Assembly: GCA_008638415.1 (NCBI GenBank)
Contig: VWVT01000002.1
Location: forward strand, 434,001 to 498,000
Reading direction: 5' to 3'
Source: Nocardiopsis sinuspersici
Lineage (GTDB): Bacteria > Actinomycetota > Actinomycetes > Streptosporangiales > Streptosporangiaceae
DNA length: 64,000 nt
A program made the translations under genes and the position numbers. Below the pieces are notes generated by a model that was given only the letters and a program-made list of their open reading frames with translations, searched no databases and had not been told where the DNA came from. Below, one piece after another: positions 36,474 to 38,779 of the stretch (the stretch's first letter is position 1; every line of letters starts with the position of its first letter).

Positions 36474-36739
36474 TCACATTCCGGTGAACTCCCGGAGCCG
36501 CTCCTCGACGACGGCCCGTTCCTCCTGGTCGAGGACGATGCCGAACACCTCCTCCAACAGCCGCCCCACCTCTTCGACGGGCACCTCGCGCTCCTCGCTG
36601 GTGCCGTCGGGCGCGGAGACGGTCAGGGTGGTGTCCGTCAGCCGGTGCTGGAGGCCCGGACCGGTGTACTGGGCCACCAGCCCGCCCCGGAACGGCGAGC
36701 GCGGGTGGCCGACCAGGTGGTGGGTCAGCTTCTCGGCCG
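36474..36739 (-). pseudogene. Arylamine N-acetyltransferase, C-terminal fragment
   Basis: This frame encodes TAEKLTHHLVGHPRSPFRGG and LVAQYTGPGLQHRLTDTTLT, then EEREVPVEEVGRLLEEVFGI, which resembles the third domain of arylamine N-acetyltransferases. It continues the broken gene at 38114-38779 across the TnpB element. The frame also runs back into the element to 36791, giving a spurious ATG, so an annotation pipeline would call a 105-residue hypothetical protein here. Confidence 0.8.
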
Positions 36740-36743
36740 TGAA

Positions 36744-36900
36744 CGACCGAGCTTGCAGTTGAACACCTGACTGGCTGCCAGGAACATCCACCGCGTCTGA
36801 CCCGCGAACCCAGGGGAACGCGGGTGGGACGTGTGACTACCGCCCCGCGTCCCACACGTCCTGGCTCCGACGGGCCAGGACACGGGAAGCGTTCCGGTCC
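36744..36900 (-). ncRNA. Candidate omega-RNA (reRNA) region at the tnpB 3' end
   Basis: TnpB nucleases use a guide RNA made from the end of tnpB and the right end of the element, with the guide read from the DNA just past that end. Here the interval holds the final tnpB codons and a hairpin CCCGCG...CGCGGG (36802-36825, with an inner CCC/GGG pairing). The predicted guide would begin at 36739 on the minus strand, CGGCCGAGAAGCTGACC. The extent is a guess from family knowledge; no transcript signal is visible. Confidence 0.4.
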
Positions 36901-37985
36901 GCGTGCGCAACGACACCACACGACCGGCAGGTGAACACAGCCTGGGAGATCCGGTTGTGCCGGTGGGTGCAGGAACACTCGGCGCACTCCTGGGAGGAGT
37001 AGGCCGGATTCACGAACACCACTGGCACACCGGCCCGCTTGGACTTGTAGGAGATGAAGCCCGCGAGTTGGGCGAAGGCCCAGGAATGCAACGCGACCCG
37101 TTGGGGCTTTCTCTGCCGTACCCTCTGCCGGATGCCCGTGAGGTCTTCCAGGGCGATTCCGCGCAAGGTGCGTTCGGCCTCGGCCACGATGCGTTTGGAA
37201 ATCCGGTGGTTGGCGTCCCGGGAACGGCGGGACTCCTTACGGCGCTGACGTTTGAGCAGCCGCCTGGTGGACTTGGTGCCTTTCTTCTGCAATTTCTGGC
37301 GCAGGCGCTGCTGTCGTCGGCGGTACCGGTTGGGTTTACGCCCGGCTAGGACCTGCCCGTCGCTGGTGGTGGCGATGTTGACGATCCCCAGGTCCACCCC
37401 GAGGAAGGAGCCGGGCTCGATCTCGGGGGCGTCAGGGACGTCGACGGTGACCGCCAGGAACCAGGTGCCGTCCCGGCAGAGCAGGTCGGCCTCGCCGTGT
37501 TTGTACTCGGCCAGGGCCTTGATCTGGTCGGTTGATCCGGCGAACGGCACGTCCTTCAACCGGCCCTGGAAGGTCCACAGCGAGATCGTGCGCGCATCCA
37601 GGGCGAAGGACAGGTTGCGCGCATCATAGGGGTGCCCGGAGTCGGGGCGAAAGGTAATGGGCCTGGACTCGATCCGCTCCCGGCGCACCGAACCCTTCGG
37701 GCCGTAGTTGCCGTGGTTCAGGTTCGAGCGGCGGGTGCGGTAGGCGTCGCACACTTTCTTGATGGTGTGCTGGGCGGCCTGAGACCCCACCCCGGCCTCG
37801 CGCAACTGCTGGTAGGTGTGCTTGCGCAGCTCATAGTTGCGCGTCACCCCGCATTCGTGGGCCACCTGCGCCACCCAGGTGGCGTGGGTGTTGAGATCGC
37901 GCAGGGTCGACTCCAGCACCGTGGCCTGCTCGGGCGACGGCGTGAGCTTGAGCTGCACGACGATCTTCGACACACCCACCATCAT
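36837..37985 (-). CDS. tnpB: TnpB RNA-guided nuclease
   Basis: 382 residues. All three RuvC catalytic acids are in place: Asp198 in FLGVDLGIVNIA, Glu280 in GIALEDLTGI and Asp363 in AHADRNASRVLARR. A four-cysteine zinc finger lies between the last two (Cys334, Cys337, Cys353, Cys356; QECAEC and FTCRSC). A basic helical stretch RRRQQRLRQKLQKKG follows the first RuvC strand. Nothing suggests inactivation. Two tandem ATG codons open the gene at 37985. TnpB cuts DNA next to a short motif and helps the element persist; no TnpA transposase is in the window. It is read in the same direction as the NAT gene it interrupts. Confidence 0.93.
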   Translation of the reverse strand: MMVGVSKIVVQLKLTPSPEQATVLESTLRDLNTHATWVAQVAHECGVTRNYELRKHTYQQLREAGVGSQAAQHTIKKVCDAYRTRRSNLNHGNYGPKGSVRRERIESRPITFRPDSGHPYDARNLSFALDARTISLWTFQGRLKDVPFAGSTDQIKALAEYKHGEADLLCRDGTWFLAVTVDVPDAPEIEPGSFLGVDLGIVNIATTSDGQVLAGRKPNRYRRRQQRLRQKLQKKGTKSTRRLLKRQRRKESRRSRDANHRISKRIVAEAERTLRGIALEDLTGIRQRVRQRKPQRVALHSWAFAQLAGFISYKSKRAGVPVVFVNPAYSSQECAECSCTHRHNRISQAVFTCRSCGVVAHADRNASRVLARRSQDVWDAGR

Positions 37986-38113
37986 GCAACCGGCCAGTGA
38001 CAGAACGCAGCCAAAAGCAGCCCGGTGTGACCCCCGTCACCAGAGGACCGGTGTGGTTTGCGCGGCGATGCCTCCCGGGGCTTCAGCTCCGGGGCTCCTC
38101 GCCAAAGCGAAGC

Positions 38114-38779
38114 TGAAGATCGCGTAGTCCTGGCGCACCGCCGCGGCGGTGGCGAAGGAGTACTGCGGGCGCCACTCCCGTCCGTCGAAGGAGCGCAGCA
38201 GCCACTCGTCCTCGCCCACCTCCGCCACACGGTCCAGGCGCAGCCCCCACCCTCCCTGGACCTCCTGGTGGCCGTCGGTGAGGGGACCGGTTCGAGCAGG
38301 CCCCCGCCGCCGAAGCCGACGTCGGCCAGCCAGGGCCCCTCGTCCAGGTCCACGCGTAGCAGGGAGTGGGTGGAGGGCCGGGGACCTCCGGTCGCACCGG
38401 ACAGGACCCGGGCGGCGAACCCGGTGACCGCGAAGCCCAGGCGGTCGAGCACGGCCGCCAGCAGGAGGTTCTGCTCTTAGCAGTATCCGCCCCTGCGCCG
38501 GCGGACCATCTTGTCCACCAGCGAGGGCACGTCCAGCGGGATCGTGCGCCCCAGGACGATCTGAAGGTTCTCGAAGGGGATGGCGGCCAGGTGGGCGCGG
38601 TGTACGGCGCGCAGGGTGTCCAAGGTGGGCGGCAGGTCGCCGGACAGGCCCACACGGGCCAGGTAGGCGTCCAGGTCCAGCTCCGCGCCGTGCCAGAAGT
38701 CGCGGTCGGTGGTGAAGCGCTCGGGGCGTGGTGCCGGAGCGGAGACGTCGGGGCCGGGGATGACGGTTTCAGATGGCAT
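38114..38779 (-). pseudogene. Arylamine N-acetyltransferase, N-terminal part (nonsense and frameshift)
   Basis: The frame from ATG 38779 reads DFWHGAELDLDAYLARVGL, AIPFENLQIVLGRTIPLDVP and RRRRGGYC, the NAT signature with its catalytic Cys. The next codon is TAA (38479-38477) where relatives have Tyr or Phe, and the frame then continues EQNLLLAAVLDRLGFAV and THSLLRVDLDEGPWLADVGF. At about 38280 a C is missing from a C-run, so the frame changes to LTDGHQEVQGGWGLRLDRVA, then WRPQYSFATAAAVRQDYAIF. At 38114 the TnpB element begins. Restoring one base makes the two pieces together 933 bases, a multiple of three. NAT enzymes acetylate aromatic amines; this copy cannot. Confidence 0.88.

Follow-up and report, generated by a model that had tools for sequence, protein, structure and literature searches.

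Between the two pieces of an arylamine N-acetyltransferase (NAT) gene in the window, by which we mean the whole 64,000-nucleotide stretch of DNA analyzed here, lies a complete TnpB-only element of 1389 bp on the minus strand (36724..38112) with no target duplication. It is very probably an IS1341-type insertion, derived from an IS605-type actinobacterial family, that entered NAT on the 3' side of TTCAG and may be retained through a guide RNA. The boundaries, the target, the conservation of the fold, the catalytic residues and the anatomy of the family are directly supported by the comparisons given below.

Element boundaries and the interrupted NAT gene

As the original prediction had it, a TnpB-only element separates two pieces of NAT, both matched by Pfam Acetyltransf_2: the 5' piece at 38113..38779 and the 3' piece at 36474..36723 (both minus strand), with tnpB, supported by profile matches, at 36837-37985 between them. 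The same prediction had drawn the element at 36740-38113, taken 36724-36739 as NAT sequence and rejoined the gene as ATC TTC A/CG GCC. A search of 40 genomes of the genus with the right-hand NAT piece as query gave 29 NAT loci from other genomes, of which 22 were aligned at the junction (L173 and L175-L180 were excluded as partial or distant). Window bases 36724-36739 are absent from all 22 orthologues, and with the flanks joined at 36724/38112 all 22 align gap-free over the 20 columns around the join; the reading frame spans 299-384 aa in 19 of them and is shorter in L153, L164 and L166. In the window, the order is ATCTTCAG, the element and CCACCAC, and the inserted length equals 3 x 463 bases. 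The right end of the element is at 36724, 16 bases from the one first drawn. Reconstructing the empty site from mappable ends was thus sound in principle and wrong at 36740, and the proposed junction is absent from all 22 orthologues, none of which reads through it. The earlier boundaries, with a guide starting at 36739, do have in their favor a locally open junction after deletion of 36740-38113 and TTCA at both proposed ends; however, with the 16 bases present in 0 of 22 orthologues and recurring as the tail of other copies, we give that version next to no probability. Its left TTCA is indeed in the host flank, whereas the right one, at 36740-36743, falls in the loop region of the element's terminal hairpin.

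Besides the insertion, NAT carries two further lesions in its 5' piece, an in-frame stop at 38477-38479, directly after the catalytic-cysteine motif RGGYC, and a one-base deletion near 38286. The insert is a multiple of three in length, but removing it does not restore an intact frame, given these two lesions. The pieces sum to 917 bases (250 + 667), one under 918 (250 + 667 + 1, or 3 x 306) because of the one-base deletion, and 918 bases fits the 305-aa orthologue in L152; the 933 bases reached earlier were right as arithmetic and not as a gene length. In the genome G023, NAT (L176) matches in fragments only, and, together with the lesions in the window, this suggests that the gene may be decaying in more than one lineage.

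Two other copies of the element provide further empty sites. Against the joined flanks of L122, nine relatives were aligned, and each has CAG directly before the join (CCAG in six, TCAG in three) and no gap there; small gaps occur upstream of the join and are large in L220. For L125, eleven relatives served for the same comparison; two of them (L231 and L232) cover one left-flank base only, and the other nine have TTCAG (seven) or TCCAG (two), followed directly by ATCAA or GTCAA. Since the three empty sites (window, L122 and L125) agree, the base after TTCA belongs to the host and the element ends in ..TGAC. That this base might be owned by the element in the window's lineage was considered and rejected on the same three sites. 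Insertion on the 3' side of a fixed short target without target duplication, a hallmark of IS200/IS605 elements, is therefore seen at the empty sites of three copies. Another hallmark, a subterminal hairpin at each end, is present as well: on the left an imperfect palindrome (38074..38094, minus strand), recognized by eye in the aligned left ends and closer to perfect symmetry in a number of other copies, as in L142 (CCCGGGGCTTCAGCCCCGGG), and on the right a hairpin with covariation. At the site where G023 carries the L122 copy and several relatives are empty, the window's own genome (C4; L217, ~1234-1500) holds an additional ~267 bases that include an inverted repeat (CTTGTACTTACAGC...GCTGTAAGCACAAG).

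The host target, which is also the predicted TAM, is TTCAG at 38113..38117 (minus strand), as judged from the orthologues, the empty sites and a tally of left flanks. These five bases precede the NAT join in 16 of the 22 orthologues, and the other six are one or two bases off (CTCAG, CACAG, TACAG, TTTAG, TGCAG and TTCAA). The expectation of a left target TTCA, possibly longer, is borne out by TTCA in the left host flank and TTCAG at this site. For the tally, left ends were located by a profile that excludes the flank; matches with E up to 0.01 were counted and weaker left-end matches omitted. TTCA stands at the left boundary in 23 of 28 relatives that bear tnpA or a tnpA remnant, in 10 of 14 other copies and in 4 of the 10 genus copies that lack tnpA (the window, whose row had been dropped as a duplicate of L191, would make this 5 of 11); among random 7-base windows of the same loci, 79 of 10,400 contain it. 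The core TCA is present in 8 of the 10 left flanks of the tnpA-less genus copies. The low TTCA rate in the window's clade speaks against a strict TTCA there and may reflect a less strict TAM or decayed flanks in this tnpA-less clade. Because the base following TTCA differs by subfamily (G, A or C), a claim beyond this lineage is safer if limited to the four-base core TTCA.

Conserved tail, right-end fold and predicted guide

The element as first drawn was searched for in the 40 genus genomes. The 20-mer TTCACGGCCGAGAAGCTGAC occurs with up to two mismatches at 31 places in 16 of the 40, compared with 3 places in three genomes for the reversed pattern; many of the matches mark the right ends of other copies, and some are clearly at other places; five of the 31 have the variant TTCACGGCCGAGCAGCTCAC and resemble a conserved site without relation to the element. 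Among 21 right-end rows including the window (L044 duplicates L127, and L123 duplicates L124), GAGAAGCTGAC is exact in 17, one or two bases off in L126, L139 and L140, and absent from L138. A profile of the last 29 bases then yielded 33 distinct right ends, in which positions within the tail are near-invariant, a property that the profile itself favors; the 12 bases past ..TG(A/G)C, which lie outside the profile, have no consensus. Bases 36724-36739 are the conserved tail of the family, and right ends of other copies lie 16 bases further on than 36740, contrary to what had been predicted for them. We also considered whether these 16 bases could be the flank of a previous donor, carried along by a mis-cut right end, as their absence from the NAT orthologues and their length, that of the guide described for ISDra2 (PMC8612924), might suggest. 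With the tail found on copies at unrelated sites and its first half pairing in the terminal hairpin with double changes, a transduced donor flank is refuted, and we assign it a negligible probability.

Fourteen right ends of 185 bases each were aligned, and the right end is predicted to fold, with covariation, as an omegaRNA-like scaffold made of the 3' end of tnpB and the right end (36724..36908, minus strand; the 5' limit at 36908 is our choice). In this scaffold, 96.2% of cells are paired, compared with 89.7% in shuffled alignments, 46 cells are changed on both sides (shuffled mean, 17.9) and the covariation score is 0.279 (shuffled, 0.165), all counted on a structure taken from the same alignment with two outer pairs omitted. 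Sliding the structure by 1-3 columns lowers pairing to 38-44%. Pairs changed on both sides are less striking in number, with 13 versus 10.0 after shuffling, and 28 of 500 shuffles reach 13. Helix 1 lies partly within the tnpB coding sequence. Helix 6 is the terminal hairpin CTCGGTCGTTCACGGCCGAG (36732..36751, minus strand), with 97.3% of cells paired and two of eight pairs changed on both sides, and is followed by the conserved terminal octamer AAGCTGAC (36724..36731, minus strand), the last bases of the element. No Rfam family matched the 1701 bases searched, at E values up to 1.

By analogy with ISDra2, whose reRNA is described as ending in ~16 nt of flanking DNA (PMC8612924), the predicted 16-nt guide is CCACCACCTGGTCGGC (36708..36723, minus strand), host NAT sequence that forms the first bases past the mapped right end. 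The guide would thus start at 36723 and not at 36739; with the right end at 36724, the 16-base guide first proposed is scaffold, and a cleavage test built on it would use scaffold as guide. The corrected boundaries change the experiment, in which the guide to use is CCACCACCTGGTCGGC beside TTCAG. In the window's own genome, a search for TCAG plus the guide with fewer than three mismatches returned the insertion site only, which itself lacks TCAG.

This genome (6.1 Mb) holds one full copy of the element, one 5'-truncated copy and six more distant tnpB matches. In the truncated copy (L133, C6:178913-179374), the C-terminal part of tnpB remains, and the right end is intact and followed by another flank; if transcribed, this copy could supply a second guide in trans to the window's TnpB. 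In G028, the ends of closely similar copies (L134, L136, L137, L142 and L143) lie at contig ends or a few hundred bases from them, which suggests a multi-copy element collapsed by assembly. L124, L132 and L135 share a similar right flank in three genomes, so this insertion may be old and vertically inherited. Many genomes of the genus contain a match to a short part of the element query (631-656), for which inspection of three loci gave no explanation.

The nuclease and the missing transposase

TnpB (382 aa; 36837..37985, minus strand) matches NCBIfam guided_TnpB (NF040570; E=9.3e-57) with 193 bits, above the curated cut-off of 100, as well as Pfam Cas12f1-like_TNB and OrfB_IS605; among solved structures, its sequence matches Cas12f and TnpB/IS605 OrfB chains best, over the C-terminal half only. 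That the nuclease keeps all its catalytic acids, as originally stated, is confirmed: no change is seen in the RuvC residues D198, E280 and D363 across an alignment of 24 relatives, nor in C334, C337 and C353 of the zinc finger, with C356 nearly invariant. Pairwise dN/dS among seven tnpA-less TnpBs ranges from 0.245 to 0.415 by a simple counting method, values that average the time before and after tnpA loss, including the time before insertion; purifying selection on tnpB in the tnpA-less clade would be the simplest reading. A gene kept without tnpA might instead encode a domesticated, TldR-like regulator rather than a transposon nuclease. Intact RuvC acids make this very improbable, as do the bases past the right end, which differ between copies, so that guides are not conserved.

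tnpB is the only gene recognized between the ends of the element. A third hallmark of IS200/IS605 elements, a Y1 transposase, was not found in the surroundings of the window's tnpB, where tblastn detected no similarity to tnpA. Relatives differ in this respect, and the tnpA that they carry is of the Y1 type, in place of the serine recombinase that marks the IS607 group. Among the 80 named relatives (the best 80 of 178 confirmed), a divergent Y1 tnpA or a remnant of one lies upstream of tnpB in 46, none is seen over 800 or more bases read in 31, and the sequence is too short in 3; with the genus loci and the window, the corresponding numbers are 49, 33 and 28 of 110 tnpB loci, 5 of the 115 loci given being without a tnpB match. 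L129, from the same genus, is 1753 bp long and carries tnpA between ends closely similar to those of the window element (86% identity over 42 bases on the left and 84% over 181 bases on the right).

In a tree of 77 TnpB proteins, built by a quick method (the careful search was unfinished), rooted for drawing only and containing artefactual long branches for L148 and L132, a fully supported branch separates the window, L121, L122, L125, L126, L127, L128 and the artefactual L148 from the other 69 rows, which include all the tnpA-bearing ones. The window's TnpB thus groups with six full-length tnpA-less genus copies that sit at different sites with different left flanks. As the left 250 bases of these six align to those of the window without large gaps, a single loss of tnpA is the simplest reading, with dispersal in trans thereafter. 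Elements with both ends placed measure 1388-1394 bp (L121, L122, L125, L126 and L127), which leaves no room for tnpA.

IS1341-type elements have been shown elsewhere to be mobilized in trans. Y1 transposases occur in 13 of the 40 genus genomes; none was found in the draft genomes G014, G012 and G023, each of which has at least two element-matching places, those of G012 being near-identical. Two other IS605-type elements in the window's own genome, L203 (C7:130500-134900) and L204 (C3:101500-105600), each contain a Y1 gene, with tnpA and tnpB in divergent orientation, and are possible helpers for the window element. The TnpA at C7:131499 is 71% identical to that of L016, the ends of its element look different by eye, and no end similarity was found between the window element and these two Y1-bearing elements.

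The mechanism we propose starts from fuller family members, in which a Y1 tnpA in divergent orientation separates the left end from tnpB; the window element would be derived from such members. It would have inserted into NAT on the 3' side of TTCAG without target duplication, presumably through a Y1 transposase supplied in trans. An omegaRNA would then be formed from the right end together with the 3' portion of the tnpB transcript, with host sequence from 36723 as its guide; such a right-end RNA is assumed from the analogy above to be transcribed. After excision, TnpB would cut the TTCAG-flanked empty allele, and repair from an occupied copy would retain the element.

A dead fossil, with an immobile element, a silent tnpB and NAT decaying together with its insert, is the less probable reading, with a real but minor share. 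The two further lesions in NAT, the missing tnpA, the single full and single truncated copy in the own genome and TTCA kept in only a minority of the clade's left flanks all point that way, whereas tnpB is open with all catalytic residues kept, and dN/dS is well under 1 in the tnpA-less clade, though averaged over time before the insertion. For the clade as a whole we tentatively suggest, with somewhat less than even confidence, a subfamily with tnpB alone, in which the transposase was lost a single time and a borrowed one then served for dispersal through the genus, with nuclease and scaffold staying under selection; with the same reserve, selection might extend even to genomes in which no Y1 gene is found today (G014 and G023). 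If so, tnpA-bearing, tnpA-decaying and tnpA-free stages of one family could be read side by side.

Comparison with known systems

Our literature search found nothing joining TnpB with Nocardiopsis; TnpB with TTCAG gave only an unrelated match, and for other TTCA pentamers no TnpB was among the matches listed.

The nearest functional parallel is the ISDra2 TnpB/reRNA system of Deinococcus radiodurans, described in PMC8612924 as having a RuvC TnpB, an RNA derived from the right end (predicted here), a pentanucleotide 5' of the left end that serves as both target and TAM, and a host-derived guide past the right end. For ISDra2, the TAM is TTGAT, as found in the donor joint, and activity has been demonstrated, whereas the window element has TTCA(G), no tnpA and predicted activity.

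Closer in sequence are IS605-type elements of Streptomyces, Actinopolymorpha and the same genus, such as L021, L016 and L129, with TnpBs 61-67% identical to that of the window and a similar left end with a palindrome; L016 and L021 share the TTCA target, and L129 has CTCA. Unlike the window element, these relatives carry a divergent Y1 tnpA. For Haloquadratum, IS200- and IS1341-type genes in divergent orientation and terminal-only derivatives are described (PMC3119063).

IS1341 is defined in PMC9956272 as tnpB flanked by ends, and the window element agrees with the group described there in having tnpB as its only recognized gene, in its length (1389 bp, within the 1252-1393 bp of the shorter elements) and in its protein (382 aa, within 362-489 aa). 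Whether IS1341 members are autonomous or decayed IS605/IS607 elements is called unclear in that account, which favors independence for its own set. Unlike that set, the window family has identified tnpA-bearing relatives with similar ends, which favors derivation from such elements followed by further dispersal, and the family is also relevant to the question whether IS1341 elements with tnpB alone arose by decay of IS605 or are independent. The window element itself is a well-bounded IS1341-type derivative of a known kind; what makes it of interest is the series that leads from tnpA-bearing to tnpA-free relatives.
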